Source: Mesorhizobium sp. M4B.F.Ca.ET.058.02.1.1
Lineage (GTDB): Bacteria; Pseudomonadota; Alphaproteobacteria; Rhizobiales; Rhizobiaceae
Assembly (NCBI RefSeq): GCF_003952505.1
Contig: NZ_CP034450.1
Span: forward strand, 1,612,001 to 1,676,000
Reading direction: 5' to 3'
DNA length: 64,000 bases
Both the position numbers and the translations under genes were made by a program. Numbering within the stretch: position 1 is the stretch's first letter; every line of letters starts with the position of its first letter. Shown here piece by piece: positions 2,855 to 57,641 of this stretch. A model generated the notes under the pieces. It was not told the origin of the DNA. It made no database searches and was given only the letters and a program-made list of their open reading frames with translations.

Positions 2855-4524
<1,670 letters not shown>

Positions 4525-4534
4525 ACGCTTATCG

Positions 4535-4562
4535 AACTAGTCGGGCACCAATGGGTTTCAAG
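4535..4562 (-). promoter_or_regulatory. Candidate RpoH-type promoter for groEL
   Basis: On the minus strand CTTGAA (4557-4562) is followed, 16 bases after that hexamer, by CTAGTT (4535-4540), about 50 bases upstream of the groEL ATG. The CTTG-type -35 box fits alphaproteobacterial heat-shock sigma factor promoters. The -10 box is only a partial match, so this is an inference. Confidence 0.35.
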
Positions 4563-4805
4563 GGCGGCAGCCGAGAATCTTTCAATCTGCCGGTACTGCA
4601 ACGCCCTGTAATCACGATGTTATTCAGGATCGCGCAAGCGCAGGACGGTCGGTCCCGAGGGCGGAGAGAGCTTGTGCGGCGCAGCATCGGAACAGTTCGC
4701 CGCGTCCACCCGTTCGGAAGGGGCCAGCGGCGCTGGCGAGCGGCCTTGCCAGGTGGGCGCTTGGGCTGCAGTAGTTGGCGTGCGCCGCGCCGGCGACAGA
4801 GGACG

Positions 4806-5309
4806 ATGGAAATGGTCCAGATCAGGGCAATGACGAAAGGCGACCTGGCTGCAGTGTCGCAGTTGCTCGGCCAATCCTGGCGGCGGACCTATTCGCCGAT
4901 CATGGGCGCGGAGACCACGGCGCGGCTTTCCGACGACAAGCACGCGCCGGACAAGCTGGCGGCGGAACTTGCAGACGACGACAAGATGTCCTTCGTCGCC
5001 GAGCGGCCCGACGGGTCGATCGCCGGCTACGCCATGGCGGCGATGGATGATCGCGGCGACGTCATGCTCGACCGCCTGCATATCGAACCGGAAGAGTACG
5101 GCAGCGGGCTGGCGACCGACCTCTTGCACGCCGTGCTCGCCGCCCATGCCGGCATCGCCTCGATCGCGCTCGAAGTGATCGAGGGCAACGACCGGGCGAT
5201 CGCCTTCTATCGCAAGCACGGTTTCGAGGTGGTCGAGCGGCGACCCGCCGCGCACGGGGTCGGCGGCCATGCCTCGCTGATCATGCGCAGGCCGCTGCCG
5301 AGGGCGTGA
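4806..5309 (+). CDS. GNAT family N-acetyltransferase
   Basis: A 167-residue protein with the GNAT fold: an N-terminal RAMTKGDLAAVSQLLGQSW segment, beta strands around FVAERPDGSIAGYAM, a variant acetyl-CoA loop EEYGSGLATDLLHAV (usually Q/RxxGxG/A), and the C-terminal NDRAIAFYRKHGFEVVER motif typical of the family. The substrate cannot be told from sequence. The frame is open upstream into groEL, but homology begins at the ATG at 4806. It is divergent from groEL. Confidence 0.85.
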   Translation: MEMVQIRAMTKGDLAAVSQLLGQSWRRTYSPIMGAETTARLSDDKHAPDKLAAELADDDKMSFVAERPDGSIAGYAMAAMDDRGDVMLDRLHIEPEEYGSGLATDLLHAVLAAHAGIASIALEVIEGNDRAIAFYRKHGFEVVERRPAAHGVGGHASLIMRRPLPRA

Positions 5310-5461
5310 GGCCCGGCGGGCATTGCCAGCGCGGCGGTGCGGGTGGTTCCTGTAGCGGCCGTCCGGAGTCCTTCGGCCGGAACCACCCGCCCGCCTCGCG
5401 TCCCTCCCAAGACAATCGCAGACTACGATCCTTGCCGTCGGGTAGTGTCTCAGTTTGAAAT

Positions 5462-5825
5462 TCAGAGCTTGTATTCGAATTCCCATAGCCCGACCCGCGA
5501 AAGCTCACAGGCTATCTCATTCCAGCTATTGCCCTTAGCCGAAGCGCATCGAGCGATGAGAAATTTTTCCAGTTGAAGGTGATCGAACGTCCGCATGAAA
5601 ATTACGCCTTCACCAGAAAAGGCCGCTTCTGTGTGGGACCGAAGAAACCATGCCGGCGAACACACCGTGGCCGTGAAAGCATCTGAGCCTTCTTTTACCC
5701 TCTTCTCCCGCATAGAAATCAATGGTGAGCGAAAAATCAGTTGGATCAGACGGACGCCATGTAGAGAGATCGAACGCGAGCTTATCGGCGTCCACAATCC
5801 TATGACCCTTATACTCCGCTTTCAT
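5462..5825 (-). pseudogene. Imm8-like immunity protein, IS passenger, frameshifted
   Basis: Read through one frameshift near 5690-5705, this gives a protein of about 120 residues: MKAEYKGHRIVDADKL, FSLTIDFYAGEEG, then SDAFTATVCSPAWFLRSH, a VIFMRTFDHLQLEKFLIARC segment and the ending LSRVGLWEFEYKL. The C-S/T-P-x-W motif, the GxxW segment and the closing WEFE follow the pattern of Imm8-family immunity proteins, which protect cells from cognate polymorphic toxins. The ATG at 5825 overlaps the 3' end of the transposase gene. No toxin gene is nearby. The family call is from memory of the pattern. Confidence 0.6.
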
Positions 5826-6453
5826 GAAACTCGCTTTCCTGCTTCTTATAGGGACCGCGCTTGCCCGGCTTCGGCGCAACGGCGTCCATCTTCTCGCAAA
5901 GGTCTTCCATCGACCAGAGCGTCTGTAGATCGCGACCATGTGGACATGGTTGTCAAACTTCTTTGAGAAGGCATTGGTAAGGCGTGAAGCGACGGTTCGC
6001 CATGCGCATCGTGAGATTGGCGCGTTCGATATGCGATGTGCCGGGTTGCCTTCAACGCGCGTCTTGACGGCACCAGTGCAGACGACGGGGCTATAGCGGC
6101 TCTCTGGCGACTTGTTGCTTTCCGGCTCGCCAGGTGCCCATCGGTCGTGAGCTGGACGCGGTTGGCAAGGCGGTCTTTCACGTCATCCATGAAGGCCAGC
6201 GATATTCGCCGTCACGGCCGCCGACCAGCCATGACACGATGAGGTTGCTATCGCTGTCCAAAGCGGTCCAGGTCCATACGTCGCCAGCGCCTTCGACCGG
6301 CTGCTTCATGGTCGAAACGTTCTTGGCTTTCGCGGCGACAAACGACCAGATTTCATCACATTGAATACGCTTGGAGGTGACGTTGCGAACTTCGCGGTCG
6401 TGCAGATCGGCGCAGAACTTGCCGACATCGACTGTTGATCGACACATCGGCAA
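5809..6453 (-). pseudogene. IS1-family transposase remnant
   Basis: Pieces of one transposase appear in shifted frames: FCADLHDREVRNVTSKRIQC followed by DEIWSFVAAKAKNV (the catalytic DDE-type core start), GDVWTWTALDSDS, then MDDVKDRLANRVQLTTDGH, and after internal deletions a tail read as QTLWSMEDLCEKMDAV and KPGKRGPYKK ending at 5809. At least two frame changes and a missing middle make it inactive. The intact tail is also seen at 17883-18068 and 33970-34107. Confidence 0.85.
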
Positions 6454-6576
6454 CGCGCGAGATCGACCGCATCGAACTACCCCCGTAGGCGGTTCCGCCT
6501 ATGGGAGCAAACGCCGCGGGGCGCTATCGCCTAGCGATCAAATTCAAACTGAGACACTACCTGCCGTCGGCTTCCC

Positions 6577-6635
6577 TTGATCTCGATCAAGCACCTGCCT
6601 GTCCGGCTGGACGGCTTACCGCCCTGCCCTATAAT
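6577..6635 (+). promoter_or_regulatory. FNR/FixK-type box and -10 box upstream of the aldo/keto reductase
   Basis: TTGATCTCGATCAA (6577-6590) is a perfect FNR/FixK consensus (TTGAT-N4-ATCAA). A perfect TATAAT lies at 6630-6635. With a start site about 7 bases after TATAAT, the box centre would be near -59 to -61, the usual class I activator position. The insertion of the IS1 relic ends only 15 bp upstream. Confidence 0.6.
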
Positions 6636-6639
6636 TTAG

Positions 6640-7677
<1,038 letters not shown>

Positions 7678-7684
7678 GCCTGTT

Positions 7685-8713
7685 TCACGCCGAGCTGCGC
7701 AGCATCAGCTCGGCGTTGAGCAGGATGCGGGCGTCACCGCGCTTGGCCGAGGACTTTTCGTCCAGCCGCTCGAGCAGCAACTCGATCGCCAGGCGGCCGA
7801 TCTCGTTGTAGTTCTGCGCCACCGTCGTGATCGGCGGGCAGGCGTAGCGCGACAGCGGATGGTCGTCGTGCCCGGCGACCCTCAGATCGCAATCGGCGCC
7901 ATGTCCCACCTTGAGGCCGAGCTGAAAGGCGGCGCCGAGCACGCCGAAGGCGACGCGGTCGTTGGCGCACAGCACGGTCCTGGTCGGAAAGCCGCCGGCC
8001 TTCAGGATGCGCGTCGCCTCGTCAAAGCCGAACTTCTCGAAATCCCAGGAGCGCGCGTCCTCGACCGGCACGATGCGCGGCGTCATCTTGAACTGCTGCA
8101 TGGCCTCGACATAGGCCTCCTGCCTGGCCGAAGCGTTGTTGTTGACCAGCGGCATGGCGAAGTAGCAGGGCGGCTCGCCGGAGCGGCAGAGATAGTCGAC
8201 GATCAGCCTGAAACTCTGCCGGTTGTCGGTGCCGACGAAGGAGGAGGTCTCGTCCAGCGGCGAGTCGACATAGATCAGCGGGATCGAGGCGCCGAGCTCA
8301 GCGAGGATCCGGTGGTGCGAGCGCACGCCGAGCGGCGCGATGATGGCGCCCGCGATGTTCATCGAGCGGAACGTCTGGATCGCCTGGTCCTCCATCTCGG
8401 CGCGCCCGTCGGAGGACAGCACGAAAGCCAGGAAGCCGGCCTCGTTGGCGATCAATTCGATGCGGCGCGTCAGCGCCATGTAGAACGGGTCCGTCGAATT
8501 CGGGATGATGACGCCGAGGATGTTGCTGCGGCGCCGATTGAGGTTGACCGCGAACATGCTCGGCCGGAAATCGGATTTCTTCAGCGCCGCCTCGATGGCG
8601 CTGCGCGTGTTCTTCCGCACCGAATTGGGATCGTTGAAATATTTGGAGACAGTCGTGCGAGACAAGCCGACGAAGTCAGAGAAATCCTCCATCGTCCTGA
8701 TCGTCTTTGCCAT
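7685..8713 (-). CDS. LacI-family transcriptional regulator
   Basis: A 342-residue regulator with an N-terminal helix-turn-helix (MEDFSDFVGLSRTTVSKYFN, then a NRRRSNILGVIIPN hinge) and a periplasmic-binding-protein-like sugar domain (LIYVDSPLDET, RVAGHDDHPLSRYACPPIT). It lies at the 3' end of the polyol gene set on the same strand and probably represses it. The direct repeats at 12190-12211 and 12334-12355 are the candidate operators. The effector is likely a polyol or ketose. Confidence 0.92.
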   Translation of the reverse strand: MAKTIRTMEDFSDFVGLSRTTVSKYFNDPNSVRKNTRSAIEAALKKSDFRPSMFAVNLNRRRSNILGVIIPNSTDPFYMALTRRIELIANEAGFLAFVLSSDGRAEMEDQAIQTFRSMNIAGAIIAPLGVRSHHRILAELGASIPLIYVDSPLDETSSFVGTDNRQSFRLIVDYLCRSGEPPCYFAMPLVNNNASARQEAYVEAMQQFKMTPRIVPVEDARSWDFEKFGFDEATRILKAGGFPTRTVLCANDRVAFGVLGAAFQLGLKVGHGADCDLRVAGHDDHPLSRYACPPITTVAQNYNEIGRLAIELLLERLDEKSSAKRGDARILLNAELMLRSSA

Positions 8714-8836
8714 TCACAGGCCCCTGTTCGACCCTTCCCGTCACTCTCTACGTGAGTCACCATCTTGCGCAAAGCTGCAACGCTTCGACCGTGCCAGGCG
8801 AGTTTCCGGGTCGATGGGAGTGCCGCGCGTTTTCAC

Positions 8837-9850
8837 TCATATATCCGCCGAAAACTGCACCTTCATCGTCGCCGGATCGCCACCGCTCTTGGCGAAGAAG
8901 GGCAAAAGTTCCGCAAGCGGCAACCGGTGGCTCACCAACCGTGCCATGGTGCCGTCGTCGCGCCTCAGAATGTCGAGCGCTTGCGGGATGTTGCGGTTCA
9001 ACGAATGCGAACCGGCCAGCCTGATCTGGCGGCGGAAGATCTCGAACGGCGCGACCGAGATCCTGGCGTCGGGCGCGCAGATGCCGAAGACGAGCGCAGT
9101 GCCGCCATCGGCTGTGAAGCCGATCATGCCTTCGACCACCCTGGCAACGCCGGTGGCGTCGGCAACGAAATCGAAGCCTTTCGTCCTTGCCACCAGCGCC
9201 TGCGATCCGGACAGCAGCGGCACCAGCCCGAGCGCCTCGGCGAAGGCAAGCCGCTGCTCGCTGATGTCGGCAACCGCGACGCTCGCCACCCCCCTCGCCT
9301 TCAGCGACAGCGCAAGCAGCAGGCCGATCGGGCCGGCGCCGAAGACCAGCGCGGTGCCGGGCACGCGTGCGCCTGGCTCGATGCCGGCCGCGCTGAGACC
9401 GTTCAGCACGCAGGCGAGCGGCTCGGCGAGCGCGGCGGTAGCGAAAGCGAGATCGCCGATGTCATGCAGATGATCGACGCCGACGAGGCTGAATTCGGCG
9501 AAGCCGCCGTTGGCGGTCACGCCGTAGGCTTTGAGCGAGGCGCACAGATTGGTGAGGCCCTTGCGGCAGGCGGCGCAGTGTCCGCAGGCAATGTTGGGAT
9601 CGATGGCGACGCGGTCGCCGGGCTTCACGGTCGTCACGTCGGCAGCGACAGCCTCGACCGTGCCGGCATATTCATGGCCGGGAACCAGCGGGAACGCGCC
9701 TTCGCCATAGCGGCCTTGCAGGACCTCGATGTCGGTGTGGCAGAGCCCGGCGGCGCGGACCCTGACCAGAGCGTGCCCCGGTGCGATCTCCGGCATGTCC
9801 AGCTCCGCCATGCCGGCAACGCCCGCGGCGGCAAATCGGATGGCTTTCAT
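8837..9850 (-). CDS. Zinc-dependent polyol dehydrogenase, candidate D-altritol 5-dehydrogenase
   Basis: A 337-residue medium-chain dehydrogenase (PF08240/PF00107). Catalytic zinc ligands are visible in GLCHTDIEV and PGHEYAGTVEAV, the four structural-zinc cysteines in CGHCAACRKGLTNLC, and the nucleotide loop in VFGAGPIGLLLAL. In Agrobacterium a PF00107 enzyme in an equivalent cluster with PF00294 kinase and PF08013 protein oxidises D-altritol to D-tagatose. The neighbours here (SDR, solute-binding protein, kinase, PF08013 protein) match that pathway. L-iditol or sorbitol specificity is the main alternative. Confidence 0.85.
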   Translation of the reverse strand: MKAIRFAAAGVAGMAELDMPEIAPGHALVRVRAAGLCHTDIEVLQGRYGEGAFPLVPGHEYAGTVEAVAADVTTVKPGDRVAIDPNIACGHCAACRKGLTNLCASLKAYGVTANGGFAEFSLVGVDHLHDIGDLAFATAALAEPLACVLNGLSAAGIEPGARVPGTALVFGAGPIGLLLALSLKARGVASVAVADISEQRLAFAEALGLVPLLSGSQALVARTKGFDFVADATGVARVVEGMIGFTADGGTALVFGICAPDARISVAPFEIFRRQIRLAGSHSLNRNIPQALDILRRDDGTMARLVSHRLPLAELLPFFAKSGGDPATMKVQFSADI

Positions 9851-9874
9851 GTCATTCTCCGTGCGGGCAACGCC

Positions 9875-10645
9875 TCAGCTCATCCAGTTGCCGCCGTCGA
9901 CATTGTAGGTCTGGGCGAGGATGTAATCACTGTCGGACGAGGCGAGGAAGACGGCGAGCCCGGCAATGTCCTCCGGCCGCGCGAAGCGCCCGATCGGCAC
10001 GGACTTCGCCACCGCCGCCTTCTTCTCGCCAGGCTTCAGGCCCTCCCAGCGGGCGAAATGGGCGTCGACGACGTCCCAATGCTCGCCGTCGACGACGCCG
10101 GGCGCGATCGCGTTGACGTTGATGCCGTGCTTGACCAGCGCCAGTGCTGCCGACTGCGTGGCCGAGATGATCGCCGCCTTGGAGGCGCAATAGAGCGTCA
10201 CCAGCGCCTCGCCGCGGCGGCCGGCCTGGCTCGCCATGTTGATGATCTTGCCGCCACGGCCGCGCGCGATCATCAGATTGGCCACCGCCTTCATCATGAA
10301 CAGCGGCCCCTTGAGGTTGATGCCGAAGACCTTCTCGTAGCTCGCCTCGGTGATGTCGGTGATCGGCGCCATGTCAAAGATGGCGGCGTTGTTGACGAGG
10401 ATGTCGATGCCGCCGAACTCGCGGTCGACCTCGGCGGCAACGCTCTCGATCGCGGCGAGATCGCTGACGTCGAGCTTCTTCGCGCTGGCCGCCGGACCGG
10501 TCGCGGCAGCCGCCTGCGTCGCGCGTTCGAAGTCGATGTCGGCGATCACCACTTTTGCGCCCTCGCGGGCATAGGCCTGAGCGAAGCCGAGGCCGATGCC
10601 GCGCGCGCCGCCGGTGATGAGGGCAGTCCTGTTGTTCAGTTTCAT
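9875..10645 (-). CDS. SDR-family polyol dehydrogenase, candidate galactitol 2-dehydrogenase
   Basis: A 256-residue short-chain dehydrogenase starting at MKLNNRTALITGGARGIGLG (Rossmann TGGARGIG motif). NNAAIF, a catalytic Ser in INMASQAG and YCASKAA (YxxxK) are all intact, and it ends VDGGNWMS. It resembles sorbitol/galactitol dehydrogenases of the SmoS/PolS type, which oxidise a hexitol to a ketose with NAD. The chosen ATG at 10645 is where homology starts; the longer frame from 10720 adds an unlikely N-terminus. It lies 25 bp upstream of the zinc dehydrogenase in one transcription unit. Confidence 0.9.
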   Translation of the reverse strand: MKLNNRTALITGGARGIGLGFAQAYAREGAKVVIADIDFERATQAAAATGPAASAKKLDVSDLAAIESVAAEVDREFGGIDILVNNAAIFDMAPITDITEASYEKVFGINLKGPLFMMKAVANLMIARGRGGKIINMASQAGRRGEALVTLYCASKAAIISATQSAALALVKHGINVNAIAPGVVDGEHWDVVDAHFARWEGLKPGEKKAAVAKSVPIGRFARPEDIAGLAVFLASSDSDYILAQTYNVDGGNWMS

Positions 10646-10716
10646 GTCCAACTTTCCAAAATTCGACAACGATTTCCGGGCGGCCGCGAAAGCTTGCCTG
10701 TCAGCCGGCGCGGAAC

Positions 10717-46901: not shown

Positions 46902-47083
46902 ATGGCCTATTCATATCGGTGCAAGGACTACCCTGGAATGGATGCCTGTCCAGGATCGTTCACGGCTGAGACTGAACTCTGGAAACACATCGAGCTTCAC
47001 GCCGCCATCGCTCATCAGGAGAACCCGAGCAGTGGTCGCCGGAAGACCGGCAACAGGTGAAAAAGATCATTCAGGCCAGCTAA
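46902..47083 (+). pseudogene. DUF1059 small protein, frameshifted
   Basis: MAYSYRCKDYPGMDACPGSF and TAETELWKHIELHAAIAHQE are the DUF1059 blocks, after a GGGAGG site. The in-frame reading ends early as NPSSGRRKTGNR at 47060. The next frame reads EQWSPEDRQQVKKIIQAS and stops at 47083, the normal family ending. One base near 47030 is missing or extra. Its end overlaps the convergent MFS gene by 4 bp. Confidence 0.78.
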
Positions 47084-48330
47084 CCCTTGGCGGTCTGCTG
47101 CATTGCGATGGCAACAATCGCACCGGAGAGAAACGTCAAAGCGGCGATCGACGTGATCGCCCATGAGAGCCCGAAGCGATCGGCGATGAGGCCCGCGGAG
47201 AGCGCGCCGATCGCGTAGCCGAGGTCGCGCCAGAACCGATAAACGCTGAGCGAGCGGGCGCGCCAGCTTGGATGCGAGGCGTCGGAAACCGCGGCGATCA
47301 GGCTTGGATAGACCATTGCCGTTCCAAGGCCGAGCAGAAGGCTGCCGACGAGCCACCACTCGAACCGGCTGGTAGCCGCGGTGAGAAACAGGCCGCCGGC
47401 CTGAACCCACATTCCGGCGACGATCAGGCCTTTGCGACCCCAGCGATCGCTCAAGGGGCCGGTGACGATCTGCAGGATTCCCCAGGTCGCGGGGTAGATC
47501 GCCTTCAGGATGCCGATGCGCTCGACGCCAAGCCCGAAGGAGGCGAAGAACAATGGGAAAATACCCCAACTCATGCCGTCATTGAGATTGTTGATGAGGC
47601 CCGCTTGCGATGCCGCGAACAGATTGCGGTCCCTGAACGAGGTCAGTGCAAATACCTCCCGGAAGCTGATCGGCGCGGATTGTTGTCTGTGAGCGGATGC
47701 CTCCAGCCGGAGGTGGTCGCGCGTGTCGCGGATGAGCACGATCGACAGCACGGCGCCGATTACGGCGTAGCCTATGCCGAGATAGATGGGCACGGGACGC
47801 AGACCGTACCGCGAGGCAAGATAGCCGGTGAGAAACGCCGTCACGCCGACCGCCAGGTAACCGGCAAATTCATTGAGGCCGACGGCGAGGCCGCGCGATT
47901 TCGGGCCGACGAGATCGACCTTCATGATGACCGTCATCGACCAGGCGAGCCCCTGGTTGATGCCGAGCAGCGCATTGGCCGCAATCACCCATCCCCAGCT
48001 CGGGGCCCAGATGATCATGAACGGAACCGGCAAGCCGACAACCCAGCCGAGGACGAGAACGCGCTTGCGTCCCCAGGTGTCCGCGAGTTGGCCCGAGACC
48101 AGATTGGCAAGCGCCTTGACCACGCCGAAGCTGACGATGAAGGAGACGACGAGTGTCGTCGAGGCGATGCCGAACTCTTCCGACCCGATGAGCGGCACGA
48201 CTGTTCGTTCGAGCCCGACCATGCCACCGACGAAGGCGTTCACCAGCATGAGCAGGGCAAACTGCCGCCAGTTTTCCTTGAGCCCAAGCCTGACAGTCGA
48301 GCCTGGCGAAACTGATGCCCCCTCGTTCAT
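47080..48330 (-). CDS. MFS transporter in the persulfide-stress operon
   Basis: A 416-residue 12-helix MFS permease (FALLMLVNAFVGGMVGLERT; SGQLADTWGRKRVLVLGW as the family loop; GPLSDRWGRKGLIVAGMW in the second half). It starts 3 bp after the stop of the MBL-fold gene on the same strand, so both belong to one operon. In such clusters MFS or TauE carriers are thought to export sulfite or related ions; the substrate here is not shown by sequence. A short relic of a near copy lies at 45054-45113. Confidence 0.9.
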   Translation of the reverse strand: MNEGASVSPGSTVRLGLKENWRQFALLMLVNAFVGGMVGLERTVVPLIGSEEFGIASTTLVVSFIVSFGVVKALANLVSGQLADTWGRKRVLVLGWVVGLPVPFMIIWAPSWGWVIAANALLGINQGLAWSMTVIMKVDLVGPKSRGLAVGLNEFAGYLAVGVTAFLTGYLASRYGLRPVPIYLGIGYAVIGAVLSIVLIRDTRDHLRLEASAHRQQSAPISFREVFALTSFRDRNLFAASQAGLINNLNDGMSWGIFPLFFASFGLGVERIGILKAIYPATWGILQIVTGPLSDRWGRKGLIVAGMWVQAGGLFLTAATSRFEWWLVGSLLLGLGTAMVYPSLIAAVSDASHPSWRARSLSVYRFWRDLGYAIGALSAGLIADRFGLSWAITSIAALTFLSGAIVAIAMQQTAKG

Positions 48331-48333
48331 TGC

Positions 48334-49074
48334 TCAGGCCGCGGCGGCGGCGAGACCCGCGTTGGCGGCACGGTTGCGCGCCGCCTCCGGCGGCGGGGGC
48401 GGTATGTCCGCGATCATCGTGGCGACGAAAGTGTCCTCGTCATCAATGCGGAACGCCTTGTTGAAGCGCTTCTCGAAGCCAATCGTCGATGTCGGCTTGC
48501 CGCTGAGCGAGCGCCCGCAGACCGAGCCGGAGTAGGCGCCGGGCAGCACTTCGACGTGATCCGGCAGTTGCTTGAGGCGGCGCACGCTCGAAAACAGCGT
48601 CCGCGCGCCGTCCTCGGCACTGGTTGCAAGTTCGGTTCGTCCGAGATCGCCAACCATGAGAGTGTGGCCCGTCAGCACGAACCATGGCTCGGCCGCGCGT
48701 GTCCTGTCCGTGACCAGGAGCGAGATGTGCTCCGGCGTGTGCCCTGGCGTGTGCATGACGGTCATGGTCACGTTGCCGAGCTCGACTACCTCGCCGTCCT
48801 TGGCGCGTCGAAATGGGAAACCGGCTTCCGCGCCCTCGAACAGCATGTATTCCGCGCCGGAGGCTGCGGCGAGCGTCCGCCCGGCGGAAATGTGGTCGGC
48901 GTGGATGTGCGTATCGACCACATAGAGAATGCGCATGCCGGTCGCCTCGGCAACTCGAAGATAGGGCGCGATATCGCCTACCGGATCGACGACGGCGGCT
49001 GCCGACTTGCCTCCGCATCCGAACAGGTAGGATGCAGCGACGGGATCGGAATGGAGGAACTGACGGAGGATCAT
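48334..49074 (-). CDS. MBL-fold persulfide/sulfur dioxygenase (ETHE1/Blh type)
   Basis: A 246-residue metallo-beta-lactamase-fold enzyme. MILRQFLHSDPVAASYLFGC is the start; ATG at 49113 is disfavoured because it would overlap the operator. Metal ligands: DTHIHADHISAG (HxHxDH), HTPGHTPEH, and GDLGRTEL. The CGRSLSGKPTSTIGFEKRFN block is typical of persulfide dioxygenases, which oxidise glutathione persulfide to sulfite. It is divergent from an ArsR-rhodanese regulator and co-transcribed with an MFS carrier. Confidence 0.88.
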   Translation of the reverse strand: MILRQFLHSDPVAASYLFGCGGKSAAAVVDPVGDIAPYLRVAEATGMRILYVVDTHIHADHISAGRTLAAASGAEYMLFEGAEAGFPFRRAKDGEVVELGNVTMTVMHTPGHTPEHISLLVTDRTRAAEPWFVLTGHTLMVGDLGRTELATSAEDGARTLFSSVRRLKQLPDHVEVLPGAYSGSVCGRSLSGKPTSTIGFEKRFNKAFRIDDEDTFVATMIADIPPPPPEAARNRAANAGLAAAAA

Positions 49075-49104
49075 GACTCTTGCACTCCCTGCCTCGCCCG
49101 AGAT

Positions 49105-49130
49105 AACATTCAATTATTCTGCTGAATGTT
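49105..49130. promoter_or_regulatory. Inverted-repeat operator between the persulfide operon and its regulator
   Basis: AACATTCA (49105-49112), 10 bases, then TGAATGTT (49123-49130), a perfect 8-bp inverted repeat in the 72-bp gap between the divergent genes. AT-rich dyads of this kind are bound by ArsR-family persulfide sensors such as BigR and SqrR. Confidence 0.75.
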
Positions 49131-49146
49131 CCATCGAGAAGAATGC

Positions 49147-49815
49147 ATGTCAAGCATCGGACCAAAACAGGCGGTTTTCGCCAGCCTTGCCGAAGTGGCT
49201 CAAGCTCTCGGGCATGCGCACCGGCTGGAGTTGCTGGAGCACCTCGCCCAGGGTGAACGGAATGTCGAGGGGCTTGCGGCACGGGCGGGCCTCAGCTTTG
49301 CCAACGCCTCGCGCCACCTTCAGATCCTCCGGCGCGCGCACCTTGTCGAGGCGCGGCGGCACGGCAAGCATGTGCTTTACCGTCTTGCCGGAGATACCCA
49401 GGTGGTTGAGTTGATGAAGGCCTTGGGGCGCGTGGGCGAGAGGAACGTCGCCGAGGTCAATCGCGTCATGGCCGACTACTTCCACGCACGCGACGCGCTG
49501 GAGGCTGTGTCGCGCGAAGACCTTGTCTCAAGACTGCATGACGGTCTTGTCACGGTTCTCGACGTCCGGTCGGAGGACGAATTTGCGCTTGGACATCTTC
49601 CGGGGGCGCTCAACATTCCGCTCGCTGACCTTGAACGCCGGCTGGCGGAGCTTCCCGCCAACCGGGAGGTCATCGCCTATTGCCGCGGTCCTTATTGCGT
49701 TCTGTCCTTCGAGGCTGTCGCGTCATTGCGGGCGCGTGGGTATGTCGTTCATCGGCTCGAGGACGGCTACCCCGAATGGAAGGCTGCGGGCCTTCCGGTT
49801 GAGGTGGCGGCCTAA
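49147..49815 (+). CDS. ArsR-family regulator fused to a rhodanese domain
   Basis: A 222-residue fusion. The start at MSSIGPKQAVFASLAEVAQA is chosen over the ATG at 49126, which lies inside the operator. Residues 10-95 are an ArsR winged helix (LSFANASRHLQILRRAHLVE). Residues 125-222 are a rhodanese domain with VLDVRSEDEFALGHLPGALN and active loop CRGPYC. The ArsR part has no cysteine, unlike BigR/SqrR, so persulfide sensing would have to use the rhodanese cysteines. It probably represses the divergent dioxygenase-MFS operon. Confidence 0.9.
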   Translation: MSSIGPKQAVFASLAEVAQALGHAHRLELLEHLAQGERNVEGLAARAGLSFANASRHLQILRRAHLVEARRHGKHVLYRLAGDTQVVELMKALGRVGERNVAEVNRVMADYFHARDALEAVSREDLVSRLHDGLVTVLDVRSEDEFALGHLPGALNIPLADLERRLAELPANREVIAYCRGPYCVLSFEAVASLRARGYVVHRLEDGYPEWKAAGLPVEVAA

Positions 49816-50788: not shown

Positions 50789-51145
50789 CTAGTCCATCAA
50801 AAGCACCAGGGCCGGATGCAGCTTCTTCAGATTCGGCAATGATTTCGATTGCCAGGGTATGTCGGGCGTTCCGCGCACGACGAGTCGAACATCGGGATGC
50901 TTGCGCACCTCGATGGTAAATTTCGCAAGCAGGTTGATGCCGGAAGAGTTGAGAAAGTGAAGGTCCTTCAAATTGAGCGTAATGGACGCGGGATTTGTGG
51001 CGAGAACGCCGGTCGCCAAAGCCATGATAGGCGCGCCGGCCTGTGAACTGGCGAGCCGCATTGAACCGTCGAAAAAAATATCGCTTCCTTCAATCCACAC
51101 GCGGTAGTCGTCGGTTTTGATTTCCATAGCCTGGCTTCGTTTCAT
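50789..51145 (-). CDS. STAS-like anti-sigma-antagonist-type protein (slr1659 family)
   Basis: A 118-residue single-domain protein: [20 protein letters not shown], then [20 protein letters not shown] with the Ser-Ser-Gly phospho-acceptor motif of partner-switch proteins, and [20 protein letters not shown]. It resembles cyanobacterial slr1659-type regulators, thought to be phosphorylated by the adjacent slr1658-type kinase and dephosphorylated by a PP2C phosphatase. It is the last gene of the operon and starts directly after the kinase stop. ATG at 51127 is an alternative start. Confidence 0.8.
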
Positions 51146-51706
51146 CTAGTTTTGAGTTTGCGAGATCGGTATGGAGGCATATGTCTCCAGGCAAACCCGA
51201 TCGCTTTCGTCCGCTGAGCTGAATATCCAGGCCAGGCGTGCGCCATAGTCGCTCATCAAAGTCAGCAGTCCGAGCCCGGAGCCCGACATGTCGGGGTTCG
51301 CGGCATTCGCTTCTATTCGCTGTATCAGCAGGTCCTTGGGATCGCCAACCGTGATGTCCGCCAGTAGACTTTGGAATTCGGATACGTTTTGACCGTCGAC
51401 GTCATTCGACACCTTGAGCTTGAAGCATTCCGAATCCATCGACGCCTCGATCACGATCTCACCTGGCGCGCGGAATTTGACAGCATTTTCGATGAGCTCG
51501 TTGACCAGATATCCGATGCTATGACGCACTTCCATGTAGTCATTGCGAGACGACTGAAAGCGCAACGCGAAAAGATCGGCGATGAAGTCCGAGGTTGTTG
51601 CGCAATGACGCCAACTCAGGTCGAGAGGTCCGTCGAACAGCCGCACGCGACTGACGTTCTCCCTCATCCCGATTGCAATGTCAGGGGTACCGAATAGCGC
51701 TGTCAT
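51146..51706 (-). CDS. GHKL-fold kinase-like regulator (slr1658 family)
   Basis: A 186-residue protein with a Bergerat ATP-binding fold: N-box YLVNELIENAVKFRAPGEIV near residue 68, and G-box NPDMSGSGLGLLTLMSDYGA near 140. There is no histidine-acceptor domain, as in anti-sigma kinases such as SpoIIAB/RsbW and SiaB-type kinases. It probably phosphorylates the downstream STAS protein. It starts 3 bp after the phosphatase stop. Confidence 0.82.
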   Translation of the reverse strand: MTALFGTPDIAIGMRENVSRVRLFDGPLDLSWRHCATTSDFIADLFALRFQSSRNDYMEVRHSIGYLVNELIENAVKFRAPGEIVIEASMDSECFKLKVSNDVDGQNVSEFQSLLADITVGDPKDLLIQRIEANAANPDMSGSGLGLLTLMSDYGARLAWIFSSADESDRVCLETYASIPISQTQN

Positions 51707-51709
51707 TGC

Positions 51710-54076
51710 CTACGTGTGCCTTATGATCACTAGGGTGATGTCGTCGTGGATCTTCTGGATTCCGATATGGGCCATCAGATCGTCGATGATACCGGTTTTG
51801 ATTTCCTCGGCGCTCCTGCCGTGACGTCTTTGCACGCTCTGGGAGAGCCGCTCGAACCCGAACAGTCTTTTGTTTTGGTCTTCCGCCTCGGTCACACCGT
51901 CGGTGTGCAGCACGATCACGTCGCCGCTCCCGAACTGGATGTCACGCGTGTCGATGAACTGCGAGATGTCGCTCTCCAGACCAACCGGCAGACCCAGATC
52001 AAGCGTATCAATGCGTTCGACTTCCCCATCCGCGCGCACGACGAGAACGTCCTCATGCTGGCCGGATAGCGTTACCCGCTCATCCTCGAAGTCAAGAAAG
52101 GCCAGCGAGAGATGCTTGTCGGTGTTGGTCCGCTCGATGTTCTTGTAGATTGCTTTGTTCAGCCGATTCAGAAACTGGTGCGGATCCGCTTCGTTGGTCT
52201 CCTGCAGCGCGCGCGCAACCGATTGGACCATCAGCATCAGCACGCCGCTCTCGAGACCATGGCCGGTCACGTCGCCGATGCCGATCTTGACCCGCGATCC
52301 GTTCCGCAGGACGTCGTAGTAGTCCCCGCCGACCTCGTCGGCCGGCCGCATGTAGGCTGCGATCTCCAGCCCCGGAATCGCTTCGAGTTCGAATGGTTTC
52401 GGCAAGACCATCATCTGGATCTGCCGGGCTACCGCGAGTTCGGCACCGAGGCGGACGTTCTCGTCCCGCAGCTTTTCGTTGAGCGCGGAAATCTCCAGAT
52501 TTGCGTCGCCGAGCTCCCTGGTTCGTTCGTCGACGAGTTGCTCGAGGTTCTCGGTATGAAAGCTGATCTCCTCAGCCATGCGGTTGAAGGCGATGCCTGC
52601 CGCTCCAACCTCGTCGCGCGTTGGAATGCTCACGCGCACGGAATAGTCCTTGGACTGGAGCCGCTGGGCGGCGCTGGCAAGCGACCTGAGGCCGGCGGTG
52701 ATGCGCTTCGAAATCCCGAGCACGGCCGCAAAGACAATCAGAAGCGAAACGACGATCGCGGCGACCTGGAAGATCAGGATACGATTGGTTGCGCGGGAAA
52801 TACTCTGTTGCGCGGCGACGAGAGACGCATAGATCTCCCGTTCGGGGACGACGATCCCGACCGACATCATTTCGGACTTGATCGGTCCCGAACTCCACAG
52901 ATTGGTCGGCTTCAACCTCTTGAGGACGACAATGTAGGGGACGCGTTCGCCGTTGTTGTCGAGCAGGATATGCTGAATGACACCGTCATTGTTCTGGTCG
53001 AGGGGCAGCGACGCGATGGCGGGCTGCGTGCTGCCACGCAGCGACCTCTCCAGGCCGGTGACGCCCTGCGTGCCTGCATCGCTCGATGAAGTCAGGCCGA
53101 TGATCGCCTGGCCCGACGGATTGATCGCCACCACGTTGCCGGTCGACATTGTGAGGAAGCCGAACCCGGTTTCGGCGATTTTCACACGTTCGACGACTTC
53201 CGCGAGCTGATCGAGCGTGATATCCGCCCCCGCCGTACCGGCGATACCGGTGCGATCTTGCGTCCACAACGGCTGGAAAAAGCTGACGATCAGCTTTCCC
53301 GTGATTGCATCGGTGTAAGGCGCTGTCTGGGTTATGTCGTCAGGGACCGGACGGGAGGCTGGATCCCTGGCCCATTGCTGCCACGACCCATAGATTCCCG
53401 GAAAGAAGAACTCCCAGAACTCCGCCTTGTTGTGGCCCGGATAGAGCCGGTCGAAGGTCTGTGCCTGGTCCGTATAGGGCACCGTCCTGAAGATCGGCCG
53501 TTCCTTTGGACCAATATAGTACATCTGCAGTTTGGACGCCCCGCTGGCCATGAGGGTCGGCGCGACGAGATCGATCACGGTACTGTCTTCTATTTCCTTC
53601 TCGACGCCCGGCAACGGATTGTGGTCGGCCCCCAATAGGTAACCCCAGACACTTATCACGGATGGCGAGCCCGGCAGATTCTGCGCCCAATCGCCCTTGG
53701 TGTCGTAGACGACCTTCACGGAGCCGGGCGCCTGATGCGACAGCGTCGCTCCGACCTGTTGCTGCCTGCCTGGGTCGTCGATCTGGGCCTGCAGCACGCC
53801 GGCCAAGGCCTTGACGTCCCCGTGAACGCGATCGAGCAGCAGGTCGACACTTAAGGCCGTCGATTCGGCATAGGAGCGAATGTATTCCTGGTTTGCGGTC
53901 GTCAGGCCCTCACCGACTTCCGACGTGGCATCGCGCGACAGCTTTTGAACGTTCCAAAGCGCCAGGCCACCGCTCATCAGGAGGTCGAACAGCACCGCGC
54001 CACCAACGACCAGTACGAATTTCGCTCGAAAGGAGCGCATGCCGAAGCGTGGTGTAGGCTCAGCGTCGGCTTTCAT
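51710..54076 (-). CDS. Membrane sensor PP2C (SpoIIE-type) phosphatase
   Basis: A 788-residue protein. MKADAEPTPRFGMRSFRAKF leads into helix 1 (FVLVVGGAVLFDLLMSGGLA). An extracytoplasmic dCache-like sensor spans about 45-390 (GYLLGADHNPLPGVEKEIED; VSFFQPLWTQDRTGIAGTAG). Then come helix 2 (ILIFQVAAIVVSLLIVFAAV), HAMP, a short coiled coil (EQLVDERTRELGDANLEISA) and the PP2C/SpoIIE domain with VGGDYYDVL, IGIGDVTGHGLESGVLM and VLHTDGVTEAED. This is the SiaA plan: a signal drives dephosphorylation of a STAS partner. Its ATG overlaps the preceding methyltransferase stop (ATGA). Confidence 0.9.
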   Translation of the reverse strand: MKADAEPTPRFGMRSFRAKFVLVVGGAVLFDLLMSGGLALWNVQKLSRDATSEVGEGLTTANQEYIRSYAESTALSVDLLLDRVHGDVKALAGVLQAQIDDPGRQQQVGATLSHQAPGSVKVVYDTKGDWAQNLPGSPSVISVWGYLLGADHNPLPGVEKEIEDSTVIDLVAPTLMASGASKLQMYYIGPKERPIFRTVPYTDQAQTFDRLYPGHNKAEFWEFFFPGIYGSWQQWARDPASRPVPDDITQTAPYTDAITGKLIVSFFQPLWTQDRTGIAGTAGADITLDQLAEVVERVKIAETGFGFLTMSTGNVVAINPSGQAIIGLTSSSDAGTQGVTGLERSLRGSTQPAIASLPLDQNNDGVIQHILLDNNGERVPYIVVLKRLKPTNLWSSGPIKSEMMSVGIVVPEREIYASLVAAQQSISRATNRILIFQVAAIVVSLLIVFAAVLGISKRITAGLRSLASAAQRLQSKDYSVRVSIPTRDEVGAAGIAFNRMAEEISFHTENLEQLVDERTRELGDANLEISALNEKLRDENVRLGAELAVARQIQMMVLPKPFELEAIPGLEIAAYMRPADEVGGDYYDVLRNGSRVKIGIGDVTGHGLESGVLMLMVQSVARALQETNEADPHQFLNRLNKAIYKNIERTNTDKHLSLAFLDFEDERVTLSGQHEDVLVVRADGEVERIDTLDLGLPVGLESDISQFIDTRDIQFGSGDVIVLHTDGVTEAEDQNKRLFGFERLSQSVQRRHGRSAEEIKTGIIDDLMAHIGIQKIHDDITLVIIRHT

Positions 54077-55251
54077 TGCGGTCGCCGCCCCGATGCGACC
54101 CAGATCGGCCAGCCCGCGTAACCCTTGGGGTGGAGCGCAGCGAAAATGTGGTCCTGGAAGCCCTGCCGGAACCGTGCAACGAACTCCGGTCCGTCGCCAC
54201 GTCTGGTCGCCATCTCGCCTGCATAGACATCCGCCCAAGCTACAATGACATCGGCGAAGTCCTGCGGGTCGCCGTCCAGGTTGGTGACCATGAAGGTCTC
54301 GACACGGATGTCTTCGAATCCGGTTTCGAGCAGGTATCGCCTGCTTTTGGGCCCAAGTTCGACGTCCATCTCGAAATGCCCGAACAGCTTCGCCACCTCG
54401 TTGTAGGTCCAACGAATGCTTTCGGCGCGCGGCTCGCCGAGGCAGTGCGAATTCTTCTCGTTGGTAATGTAAACCCGCCCGCCTGGCTTGCAAATGCGGT
54501 AGAGCTCCTTGAGGATAAGTTCAGGTCGATTGAAGATTTGAAGGGAATGTCGGCAGGTGACCAAATCGAACTGCGCTTCGTCGAGCAGCATTTCCGACGC
54601 ATCGCCATAGGTATATTCGATACCCCGGATGTCGAATTCCTGCATCACCTGTCGAGCATAGTTCAGGCTTGATATGGAGTGGTCGAGGGCGACGATCCGC
54701 GATGGCTGGAACTCCTTCTGCACGAGCACGGCGAAATCACCGATCCCGCAACAGATGTCGGCCATGACGATCCCAGGCCTCATGCCGTGTCGCGGCAAGA
54801 TCGCGCGCTCGTGGCGCCAGGTCATCTTTGTCTGTGTGCGCAGGATTGGAACAAAACCGCCTTCCTCAAGGAAGCCCTGTCCCGGATAGAATTGGCTGTC
54901 ATACTGCTCGACCGTGATGTTCGGTTCGATTTTGCTCAAGCGCCCGAATTTTCGCGAGGTCCATCCAACGACGCTTGATGTGATGACGACGAATTTGAGA
55001 TCGGGTCGAGCGCGGCAGGCGTCGATGATGATCCTCGAGAAGGCGTAAAATGCAGCGTTGTTCATCTGCGTCAGGCGCCTGACGTTGACATAGAGAACGC
55101 CGCGCACACGGCCGATCGCATCACGAAGCAATGCCAGGCTCGTCCCAAGCTCATCGATCGCCTGAGGCCGGACCACCCCCGATATGGAGAACTCCTGGTT
55201 GTTGGCGTCGTATTGCGCCTTGAAGCGCGGGAGAAGGTTGTAAGGGCTCAA
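54073..55251 (-). CDS. STAS-like domain fused to a SAM-dependent methyltransferase
   Basis: A 392-residue fusion that starts with TTG overlapping the upstream stop (TTGA). Residues 1-125 align with the slr1659-type STAS protein: RPDLKFVVITSSVVGWTSRK then LSKIEP, matching [19 protein letters not shown] and LKKLHP there. The phospho-acceptor NSSG is replaced by MNNAAF, so this STAS part should not be phosphorylated. Residues 165-390 are a class I methyltransferase (MADICCGIGDFAVLVQKEF, VALDHSISSLNYARQVMQEF, VTCRHSLQIFNRPELILKEL). The methyl acceptor is unknown. The fusion suggests methylation controlled by partner switching. Confidence 0.85.
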   Translation of the reverse strand: MSPYNLLPRFKAQYDANNQEFSISGVVRPQAIDELGTSLALLRDAIGRVRGVLYVNVRRLTQMNNAAFYAFSRIIIDACRARPDLKFVVITSSVVGWTSRKFGRLSKIEPNITVEQYDSQFYPGQGFLEEGGFVPILRTQTKMTWRHERAILPRHGMRPGIVMADICCGIGDFAVLVQKEFQPSRIVALDHSISSLNYARQVMQEFDIRGIEYTYGDASEMLLDEAQFDLVTCRHSLQIFNRPELILKELYRICKPGGRVYITNEKNSHCLGEPRAESIRWTYNEVAKLFGHFEMDVELGPKSRRYLLETGFEDIRVETFMVTNLDGDPQDFADVIVAWADVYAGEMATRRGDGPEFVARFRQGFQDHIFAALHPKGYAGWPIWVASGRRPQ

Positions 55252-55769
55252 TGTTGCAGGCCCTCAAGCGGAAGATCCACGATAAGTGTGATCGCATCGC
55301 CGTCGGCTTCCTCGACCCTGAGCGTCGCGTTGTAGTCGACAGCCAGTTCCAGCAGTACGACCTCCCGGCTGGGCGCGAGATCTCCGGAAACAGAATTAAG
55401 GTATCGTTCCCTGGCCTCGTATCCCGTGACCTGGCTTACGGCTTCCTCGTAGAATTGGCGCTCCTCCGGCACGCAAGGAAATGTCAGTTCGATCCGGTCC
55501 GTCGCGCCATGGCGAGACACCCTGCACGCCAGTTCGCCGTCGGCATGGCGCGTACGAAAGGCGATTTCCAGCAATTCGTTGAAGGCAGAGGAAAAGAGAT
55601 TTGAATGGCGGACCGAGTCGGATCGATTTTGACTGATCATGCGGGCCATATATGTCGAGACGTAGTCGCAGTGTCTCCAGGCGGAGACGAAAGTCCTGAT
55701 CTCCATGTCGATCTGGATCATCGGCTCGAAAGTCGGCTCGCCAGCCAAGTCATGATGAACGGATCCCAT
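55248..55769 (-). CDS. Degenerate GHKL-like protein, first gene of the partner-switch operon
   Basis: A 173-residue protein (MGSVHHDLAGEPTFEPMIQI; MEIRTFVSAWRHCDYVSTYM). The segment LFSSAFNELLEIAFRTRHAD sits where slr1658-type kinases have their N-box, but the catalytic Asn is missing (NELLEIA against NELIENA), and no G-box glycines are seen. It ends with a beta hairpin (ATLRVEEADGDAITLIVDLP). It may be a non-catalytic partner of the STAS domain of the next protein. A start at MIQIDMEIR is possible. Confidence 0.65.
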   Translation of the reverse strand: MGSVHHDLAGEPTFEPMIQIDMEIRTFVSAWRHCDYVSTYMARMISQNRSDSVRHSNLFSSAFNELLEIAFRTRHADGELACRVSRHGATDRIELTFPCVPEERQFYEEAVSQVTGYEARERYLNSVSGDLAPSREVVLLELAVDYNATLRVEEADGDAITLIVDLPLEGLQH

Positions 55770-55898
55770 CGGCGTCCTCTCTTATTCCATCCGTAGTTGA
55801 GCCTGGTGGCGCGATGAGCCGGTTCCGCACGCAGGAATTGCGCGGCACGGGCCTCGTTGGTTTTTTACCACTCTCCGCTTTACAAAGGGTGCAAGGCG

Positions 55899-57641
55899 CT
55901 ACACTGCCCGATTTGATCCCTCCATCGCCCGTATCCCCTTCGGCGGGGACCTCCTGATGAAATCGCTTGTTGCCTCGGCACCGAGCGGCCGGCCGAGGAA
56001 ATTGCCCTGCAGGCAATCGCAATTCTCCTTGATCAGCCACCGTGCCTGTGCCGACGTCTCAACCCCCTCGGCGGTGACGCTTATTCCCAAGCCGTGCGCC
56101 AGATTGATGATCGATCGCACGATCGTCTGGCCTTTGAGATCGGTCTCCAGGTCCGCGATGAAGTATTGATCTATCTTCAAAGTGTCGAATGGAAAATTCT
56201 TAAGATAGCTCAATGATGAATAGTATGTTCCAAAATCGTCGAGCGAAATTCGTATTCCCAATACGTTCAGAGTATTCAACGTGTCGATATTGTCGATTGT
56301 CCTCTCAAGAAGAACCGTCTCGGTTATCTCAAGTTCAAGTCTGTCGGCTCGAATTCCAACCTCGTCGATGATCTGAGCGACGGTATCTGTCAGCGAACCG
56401 CTGAGGAACTGAGCCGGCGACAGGTTGACTGCGACCGTCAGCGAAGAAGGCCAACTCAATGCCTGGCGACAGGCTTGCTCGAGCACCCATCGACCGATCT
56501 CATCCATCAGACCGTCGGCTTCGGCGATCGGTATGAACACGCTGGGTGGAATGACCCCGATCTCGGGGTGCCGCCACCGCAGCAGCGCTTCGAAGCCGAT
56601 CACCGACGAAGGAGGCCGAATGAGCGGCTGATACTCCAGATAAAGCTCGTTCCGCTCCAGCGCGGTTCGAAGGCTGCGCCTCAGATTTTCGCGTTGCTCG
56701 AGCAGGAGCAGCATCGAGCGGTTGAACGTTCGAGCGCAGCCGCGTCCATCTGTCTTGGCTGCATAAAGAGCAATGTCGGCGGCTTTCATCAGTTGCTCGC
56801 CATCTGTCCCGTGCTCCGGCCCGAGAGCAATTCCGATACTCGAGCCGACGAAGACAGGAATGCCGTTGATGACGAACGGCTCCTTGAACGCGTTGACCAG
56901 CGATCCGGCGAGGCGCTCGGCTTCCGCGGGCTGCTCCTTGCCCAATTGAATGACGGCGAACTCATCGCCGGCATACCGGTAGGCGGATTCGCCGTCCTGC
57001 AGCGCGTCACGAATTCGACCTGCCGCAAGTTGAAGAAGCGTGTCACCTGCTCCATGGCCGAGCGTGTCGTTGACCGCTTTGAAATCATCAAGGTCGATTT
57101 GCAGCAAGGCGGCCTTCGGCTTTGATCCGCCTATGACCGTCAGCGCTTGCTGCAGCCGCTCGCCGAATCGCCGCCGATTCTGCAGTCCGGTCAGCACGTC
57201 GTGCGTCGCCTGATGGAGCAGAATTACATGCTCCTGCTCATCCGCCGCGCTCCGCCCGCCGCGCTCCCTTGATTCGATGATTCCCGCACCATCTGCTGTG
57301 CCGAAGACGAAAACGGACCGGGGCGCTTCGCCCGCCGATCGCGGCAAGTCGATGCTTGCCGGAGAACCGCCCTGGAACACCCGAAGAAATTCGTCGCGAC
57401 AGCTCGCATCGAGGAAGCTCGGGTAGATCTCCCAGATGGCGGCGCCCAGCGCCACCGCGCTTCCGTATATGCGTTTGAGGCTGGCTGCGTAGTGCGTCAG
57501 ACGGAAGTCGCGATCATAGAACGACATAAGTTCGGTCGTGTTCGCCAAAAGGTCTGGGAGAAGCGCCTCGCCGGCACGTGGAACATCGCTTGAGGAAAGC
57601 CCCTCGTTCTCCGTACCGACGCCTGATGCCTCTGGGCGCAA
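55899..57641 (-). CDS. PAS-GGDEF-EAL protein, c-di-GMP turnover
   Basis: A 580-residue cytoplasmic protein. An N-terminal PAS-like domain (LLANTTELMSFYDRDFRLTH), a GGDEF domain with SAYRYAGDEFAVIQL (AGDEF variant), and an EAL domain with IGFEALLRWRHPEIG, ELEITETVLL, KIDQYFIADL and VTAEGVETSAQAR. The loop-6 motif reads SLDDFGTYYSSLSYL, with Tyr for the second Gly of DFGTGYSS, so phosphodiesterase activity needs testing. It is 129 bp upstream of the partner-switch operon on the same strand, as SiaD is linked to SiaABC. Confidence 0.88.
   Translation of the reverse strand: MRPEASGVGTENEGLSSSDVPRAGEALLPDLLANTTELMSFYDRDFRLTHYAASLKRIYGSAVALGAAIWEIYPSFLDASCRDEFLRVFQGGSPASIDLPRSAGEAPRSVFVFGTADGAGIIESRERGGRSAADEQEHVILLHQATHDVLTGLQNRRRFGERLQQALTVIGGSKPKAALLQIDLDDFKAVNDTLGHGAGDTLLQLAAGRIRDALQDGESAYRYAGDEFAVIQLGKEQPAEAERLAGSLVNAFKEPFVINGIPVFVGSSIGIALGPEHGTDGEQLMKAADIALYAAKTDGRGCARTFNRSMLLLLEQRENLRRSLRTALERNELYLEYQPLIRPPSSVIGFEALLRWRHPEIGVIPPSVFIPIAEADGLMDEIGRWVLEQACRQALSWPSSLTVAVNLSPAQFLSGSLTDTVAQIIDEVGIRADRLELEITETVLLERTIDNIDTLNTLNVLGIRISLDDFGTYYSSLSYLKNFPFDTLKIDQYFIADLETDLKGQTIVRSIINLAHGLGISVTAEGVETSAQARWLIKENCDCLQGNFLGRPLGAEATSDFIRRSPPKGIRAMEGSNRAV

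Follow-up and report, generated by a model that had tools for sequence, protein, structure and literature searches.

The closest described relative of the locus studied here is the bgrRSTUWV operon of Sinorhizobium meliloti, for which the accessible parts of the literature present BgrR as a diguanylate cyclase and BgrSTUWV as a switch (PMC8457831, citing Baena et al. 2019, doi 10.1111/1462-2920.14624), BgrU and BgrW as a phosphatase/kinase pair acting on BgrV (PMC7647112) and BgrV as the controller of BgrR (PMC8457831 and PMC7647112, citing Baena et al. 2019). The same excerpts link the bgr switch to mixed-linkage glucan (PMC7647112). No literature on BgrS or BgrT singly was found among the best 15 of 513 and the best 15 of 179 matches, and the BgrS/BgrT name matches among the best 15 of 513 were, by title, unrelated acronyms. 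A second system of similar layout is SiaABCD of Pseudomonas aeruginosa, which also combines a HAMP-PP2C phosphatase, a GHKL kinase, a phospho-target and a c-di-GMP enzyme.

The window analysed here, a stretch of 64,000 nucleotides from the Mesorhizobium sp. M4B.F.Ca.ET.058.02.1.1 contig NZ_CP034450.1, contains six minus-strand genes whose classes match the letters bgrR-S-T-U-W-V position by position. On S. meliloti 1021 pSymB (NC_003078.1, approximately 458-466 kb), all six have orthologues (55-74% identical) with unchanged order and strand; the genes are unlabelled in the pSymB record, and the bgr name was assigned from their content and order. The two operons are thus alike in all six genes, their order and strand and, as far as the available excerpts describe them, in their diguanylate cyclase, phosphatase, kinase and STAS roles, whereas the S. 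meliloti operon lies on pSymB and the present one on one contig of 6.46 Mb. Taken whole, this operon is therefore already known, the window copy being very probably an orthologue, and the earlier note's statement that no characterised system has the full set has to be withdrawn.

The operon starts with the bgrR orthologue (55899..57641), which encodes a GGDEF-EAL protein of 580 amino acids with an AGDEF form of the first motif (Pfam GGDEF, 6.7e-42; EAL, 1.2e-72). It had been described as a PAS-GGDEF-EAL gene directly upstream of the others; the GGDEF-EAL architecture and the position, 129 bp upstream of bgrS, hold, but no PAS domain was detected in Pfam at E values up to 1. The five genes that follow abut or overlap exactly as previously claimed: bgrS (55248..55769) overlaps bgrT (54073..55251) in TTGA, bgrT starts with TTG and overlaps bgrU (51710..54076) in ATGA, 3 bp separate the PP2C gene bgrU from the start of the GHKL gene bgrW (51146..51706), and 0 bp lie between bgrW and the start of the STAS gene bgrV (50789..51145). 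The start of bgrU was placed at the ATG at 54076, as an alternative TTG at 54493 falls within the upstream gene. Promoter and terminator scans gave matches no commoner than in shuffled sequence (2 compared with 2.8, and 4 compared with 6.8, respectively), and we therefore claim no transcript boundary.

To assess conservation, we searched with the STAS-methyltransferase fusion encoded by bgrT and kept 80 out of 212 loci. Relatives that are 94-96% identical point to Mesorhizobium as the genus of the window. The core was in order in 79/80 of these, with bgrR no more than 600 bp upstream in 78/80, although loci retrieved with the fusion as query do not reveal how often the live kinase/STAS pair (BgrW and BgrV) occurs without it. 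Genome-wide at an E value of 0.001, two slr1658-type and two slr1659-type matches were obtained, all four at this locus. As the order is conserved across genera and all of these matches fall here, a chance neighbourhood is ruled out, which bears out the linkage expected in the earlier note. In separate samples, drawn without regard to the fusion, ten different genomes had an slr1659 protein above the cut-off. Nine of them carried the fusion; the tenth (G719, locus L138) has the live pair and a SiaD-like c-di-GMP synthase without it. One further genome, G396, gave a weak slr1659 match to an ORF that resembles a conventional STAS protein with a GHKL neighbour, and was left uncounted.

The phosphatase, kinase and target of the switch appear intact. 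BgrU is a sensor phosphatase with SpoIIE (PP2C; 3.2e-40) and HAMP (5.6e-12) domains above the Pfam cut-offs and a possible Cache-like domain (dCache_1, 27.1 bits, under the cut-off of 45). BgrW, a GHKL kinase, and BgrV, a STAS phospho-target, score 184.7 and 133.8 bits against the curated slr1658 (NF047703) and slr1659 (NF047705) superfamily models respectively, both with a cut-off of 100. These assignments confirm the reading of the locus as a partner-switching operon beside a c-di-GMP enzyme, with a SiaABCD-like layout. Motifs were compared in 94 rows, one of them that of the window (92 in the case of BgrV), drawn from 79/80 loci L019-L098 (77 in the case of BgrV), 13/14 loci L108-L121 and L133, with L062, L119, L007-L018 and lengths outside 85-115% of the window protein left out; the rows are not independent, because closely related Mesorhizobium strains supply many of them and, judged by length, a single Labrys contig is represented as both L080 and L114. 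The GGDYYD and GDVTGHG motifs of BgrU and the N-box of BgrW (N-E-L/I-x-E-N-A) are present in all 94 rows, the G-box-like S-G-L-G of BgrW in 93 or 94 at each position, and the NSSG motif of BgrV in all 92.

Given the orthology and these intact motifs, from which the switch logic is derived, we consider it highly likely that this operon is the Mesorhizobium bgrRSTUWV orthologue, in which BgrV phosphorylation, as set by BgrU and BgrW, would control BgrR and hence c-di-GMP. The BgrU-type phosphatase and BgrW-type kinase would set the phosphorylation of BgrV, probably at NSSG, and the state of BgrV would in turn determine the activity of the GGDEF-EAL protein. In S. meliloti, unphosphorylated BgrV reportedly restrains BgrR, i.e. 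the sign is inhibitory. BgrR of the window is 59% identical to the pSymB gene at the same place. In its EAL domain, the loop DFGT-x-YSSL carries Y, H, F, R or E at position x in the six commonest variants, which account for 82/86 rows (proteins of 500 residues or fewer and weak matches having been dropped), whereas active EAL enzymes presumably carry G at this position.

The c-di-GMP made by BgrR in S. meliloti is said to feed glucan synthesis by BgsA, a glucan synthase downstream of the switch. In contrast, we found no BgsA-like protein in the present genome, where the best match was 26% identical over 250 residues (E 1.2e-10), nor in eight genomes of the same genus, within a sample of 26 hand-picked genomes or loci (16 with the fusion and 10 without). 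The S. meliloti output is therefore not transferable to this strain, a difference that affects the enzyme acting after the switch and leaves the gene content of the operon untouched.

The likeness to SiaABCD raises the question of whether this is simply such an operon with an accidental methyltransferase neighbour. The component classes are the same, the phosphatase scores 127.7 bits against the SiaA model, and the predicted structure of BgrS is closest to SiaB, albeit with a high rmsd (7.3), followed by kinases of the SpoIIAB, UsfX and RsbW type. However, the NCBIfam Sia models all score far below their cut-offs (SiaA, 127.7 against 700 bits; SiaB, 18.9 against 85; SiaD, 93.8 against 290), which rules out strict membership. 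BgrV exceeds the slr1659 cut-off. No SiaC (DUF1987) match was listed for it at E values up to 1, which carries weight only if a SiaC model is among those searched. In addition, the operon differs from SiaABCD by its EAL domain, its extra GHKL protein and its STAS-methyltransferase, and in 9/10 genomes of the fusion-blind samples mentioned above the live pair is again linked with the fusion. We thus regard a strict SiaABCD operon beside an accidental methyltransferase as extremely improbable.

We then considered the two genes that SiaABCD lacks. BgrS (173 amino acids) matches the slr1658 superfamily model with 48.1 bits (E 8.7e-13), and the N-terminus of BgrT, where a STAS domain (approximately residues 10-116) is fused to a UbiE-like class I methyltransferase (approximately 120-392), matches the slr1659 model with 33.7 bits (E 3.6e-8). 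Both scores lie below the cut-off of 100, so the two are related to these superfamilies but are not members by curated score. A further comparison of the BgrT STAS region with the slr1659-type protein gave an E value of 4e-6 over 60 residues, and the BgrT model places strands and helices in STAS order; the profile match, alignment and model together substantiate the proposed relationship of the fused STAS domain to the slr1659-type protein. Judged by sequence, BgrS together with the STAS domain of BgrT constitutes a predicted second kinase/STAS pair. Its motifs, unlike those of the live pair and the phosphatase, are altered. An N-box asparagine and a glycine-rich box are hallmarks expected of an active GHKL kinase; in BgrS the asparagine is replaced by V, I, T, M or L and the SGLG box is absent, in 94/94 rows in both cases, and BgrS is probably a pseudokinase. 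At the NSSG site of BgrT the window row has N and A, with no Ser/Thr; a Ser or Thr is kept at one of the two positions in 50/94 rows and at neither in 44/94, so that phosphorylation by the live kinase may still occur in the former.

In the phylogenetic tree each of the two pairs forms one group, and the same four loci (L108, L109, L112 and L116) split off in both (UFBoot 89 and 87), as expected with joint descent of the pairs; the second-pair branch is very long, at 3.27 substitutions per site, which limits what it says about the origin of that pair. A second kinase/STAS pair with a dead-looking kinase next to a live pair is described neither in the available excerpts of the S. meliloti literature nor among the papers listed.

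The loss of kinase motifs in BgrS, together with the fact that bgrS and bgrT are linked with the live pair at every complete locus examined, would suit a passive role for both proteins, as a scaffold or stabilizer of the BgrU-BgrW-BgrV complex in which the methyltransferase fold is no longer enzymatically relevant. We think this unlikely, as the SAM-binding motif of BgrT and its C-terminal portion rank among the best conserved segments, and a decayed enzyme should drift. The ADxCCGxGDF-type motif is present in 94/94 rows. BgrT scores 62.9 bits against the UbiE/MenG equivalog (cut-off 216), which reflects a shared fold and does not imply a substrate. The best structure matches for residues 120-392 were 3mgg, UbiG, OxaG and phosphoethanolamine methyltransferases; as these are uncharacterized or diverse, we propose no substrate. 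A role in anti-phage defence was also rejected, since the PADLOC mad2 match (E 3.6e-17) is confined to BgrT residues 149-300, within the methyltransferase, and the three other proteins searched with it (BgrS, BgrW and BgrV) matched nothing.

Alongside the c-di-GMP switch, we suggest that BgrS may hold BgrT as a clamp that binds without catalysis, with BgrV as a possible competitor for BgrS, so that one phospho-switch would serve both c-di-GMP and the methyltransferase; our confidence in the c-di-GMP branch does not extend to these steps. A stronger version, in keeping with the methylation output that the earlier note considered, makes the methyltransferase the output shared across this operon family: BgrT would be held by BgrS and freed when dephosphorylated BgrV competes, the duplicated kinase/substrate pair would serve as an actuator that responds to the live pair and gates methylation, and the c-di-GMP enzyme would be a second, clade-specific output, added or kept only in the clade comprising rhizobia and Labrys. 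This would agree with the recurrence of the fusion in the fusion-blind sample and its invariant SAM-binding motif, and with three families (f23, f41 and f126) in which the core including the methyltransferase stands without a bgrR-like gene nearby in 8/8 loci, the whole fusion remaining 61-62% identical even in f126. Such loci outside rhizobia and Labrys are likewise described neither in the excerpted S. meliloti literature nor among the papers listed. Nevertheless, the absence of bgrR in the eight loci concerns the neighbourhood only, and the reported S. meliloti output, in the sources as available, is BgrR. Because the tenth genome (L138) couples a live pair to a SiaD-like enzyme without the fusion, and because half of the BgrT rows keep Ser/Thr, we put this proposal forward only tentatively, behind the c-di-GMP switch as our preferred reading. 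Were the methyltransferase the output, partner switching would govern a class of enzyme that is not known to be under such control.

Two loci with kinase and STAS proteins of the live type, carrying NELLENA and LNSSG, illustrate the simpler arrangement: L139, on a Kovacikia plasmid, and L138, which in addition to its SiaD-like diguanylate cyclase also carries a PP2C protein. Unlike the present operon, neither has a second pair or a STAS-fused methyltransferase within the 14-16 kb read. A coil is common to a soluble PP2C protein near bgrR-less operons and the diguanylate cyclase of L138, although this may be mere coiled-coil composition. On its opposite strand, L138 does encode two methyltransferases of the FkbM type, neither of them fused.

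The six minus-strand genes that the earlier note had placed at 50789–57641 were real, and a check of open reading frames and junctions left their positions unchanged. The first gene, bgrR (55899–57641), is an open reading frame whose product matches GGDEF and EAL in Pfam; the PAS domain also attributed to it was not seen at E values up to 1. It is followed by bgrS (55248–55769), a degenerate GHKL protein and a sub-threshold NCBIfam relative of the slr1658 superfamily; bgrT (54073–55251), a STAS-methyltransferase fusion with an N-terminus that is a sub-threshold relative of the slr1659 superfamily; bgrU (51710–54076), an open reading frame encoding a HAMP-PP2C phosphatase; and the kinase bgrW (51146–51706) and STAS protein bgrV (50789–51145), which NCBIfam assigns to the slr1658 and slr1659 superfamilies respectively. 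From bgrS to bgrV, the junctions are two 4-bp overlaps, 3 bp and 0 bp. Beyond BgrS, BgrT, BgrW and BgrV, no further matches to these two families were found in this genome at E 0.001.

When the fusion protein was searched against the plasmid collection, 120 records were obtained, 80 of them from Sinorhizobium, including pSymB of S. meliloti 1021. This plasmid carries all six genes in identical order and strand, with identities of 59% (BgrR), 55% (BgrS), 74% (BgrT), 72% (BgrU), 61% (BgrW) and 59% (BgrV). Excerpts of two papers citing Baena et al. 2019 (PMC8457831 and PMC7647112) describe the S. meliloti system as a diguanylate cyclase, BgrR, and a switch, BgrSTUWV, in which BgrU and BgrW are a phosphatase/kinase pair acting on BgrV. 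The same six genes thus being present on pSymB and published, as far as these excerpts go, the proposal of the earlier note that the operon has no characterised counterpart fails. Because genes are unlabelled in the pSymB record, the bgr name used here rests on a one-by-one match of the gene order to R, S, T, U, W and V. On these comparisons, the operon is very probably an orthologue of bgrRSTUWV. For its second half, bgrS and bgrT, we found no description in the literature searched.

Conserved linkage of the five core genes, bgrS to bgrV, was borne out by a genome scan using the fusion as query: among the best 80 of 212 confirmed loci, the core was in order in 79, and 78 had a GGDEF-EAL gene on the same strand within 600 bp upstream. 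The exceptions are the cluster of Mesorhizobium sp. LNHC252B00, which is cut by a contig end and has split matches in several genes, and locus L087, with an inverted GGDEF-EAL gene. The cluster, or the fusion, was seen twice within one strain in Ensifer aridi (L082 and L087) and S. meliloti GR4 (H20 and H27). The distribution of the fusion, again as query, was patchy: 12/297 genomes of the order, 5/385 of the class sample (the fifth a partial match to the methyltransferase alone) and 6/398 of the phylum sample, including three of the nine same-genus genomes listed. With the kinase alone, 119 plasmid records were recovered, of nearly the same make-up as the 120 obtained with the fusion, plus one cyanobacterium (Kovacikia). 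In searches made without the fusion, an slr1659 protein exceeded the cut-off in 7/398 and 4/385 genomes (10 distinct), nine of which also encode the fusion; the exception is G719.

Orthology and motifs suggest that BgrU and BgrW would act on BgrV, and BgrV on BgrR, as excerpts report for S. meliloti (PMC8457831 and PMC7647112). BgrS may serve as a binding-only clamp on BgrT, a putative clamp that BgrV would relieve. The SAM motif of the methyltransferase is kept in 94/94 aligned rows, which argues for a working enzyme. That methylation is the output of the operon is unlikely. A region of G719, L138, has in succession (4485–9140) a SiaD-like diguanylate cyclase, slr1658 and slr1659 proteins, a PstS-like protein and a PP2C, with no fusion, which speaks against an original output through the methyltransferase, although the region also contains, on the opposite strand, two genes for unfused FkbM-type methyltransferases (685–1569 and 9805–10695). 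The L138 set is a simpler relative of the bgr system, and its PstS-like protein, of phosphate-binding type, may be part of the sensor.

Fourteen longer regions were also fetched, and 13 contained the five-gene core, L119 giving only a partial methyltransferase match. A bgrR-like gene was absent from eight of the 13 (L108–L112 and L116–L118) within the 14–19 kb read in each; these eight are all the regions of families f23, f41 and f126, and the f126 fusion has as its nearest named relative a 98% identical protein labelled Rhodospirillales. In the other five (L113, L114, L115, L120 and L121; families f1 and f50, the latter including Labrys) bgrR lies upstream. A soluble coil-PP2C gene was observed approximately 0.5–2.6 kb from the core in six of the bgrR-less loci (L108, L109, L110, L116, L117 and L118), and at E 1e-20 was found neither in L111 and L112 nor in any of 86 other loci searched. 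Its coil resembles that of the L138 cyclase (E 5e-6 in that one comparison), and this PP2C may be a further partner in the switch.

Within the GGDEF-EAL family, the six commonest variants of the GGDEF site have AGDEF (49/86 rows), and at the EAL loop position where active enzymes have glycine, the six commonest variants carry another residue (82/86 rows), a pattern that would be in line with a cyclase role. BgsA, the enzyme downstream of BgrR in S. meliloti, was identified on pSymB as a 669-residue open reading frame (L134:27636–29645), in which R605, D608, Y633, G635 and R656, residues taken from an excerpt of PMC5567048, all fit at a single offset of 5. Among 26 chosen genomes, full-length BgsA (78–79% identity) was present in three, which belong to a single genus within the same family (3/16 genomes with the fusion compared with 0/10 without), and six further genomes gave partial matches only (32–38%). 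At E 1e-40 there was no BgsA match in the window's genome or in eight others of the genus, and at E 0.001 the window's genome gave only distant matches (26% over 250 residues).

Elsewhere in the window, at 47080–49815, Pfam identified an ArsR-rhodanese fusion and, divergent from it, an MFS transporter together with a protein of metallo-beta-lactamase fold, perhaps a sulfur-stress set.
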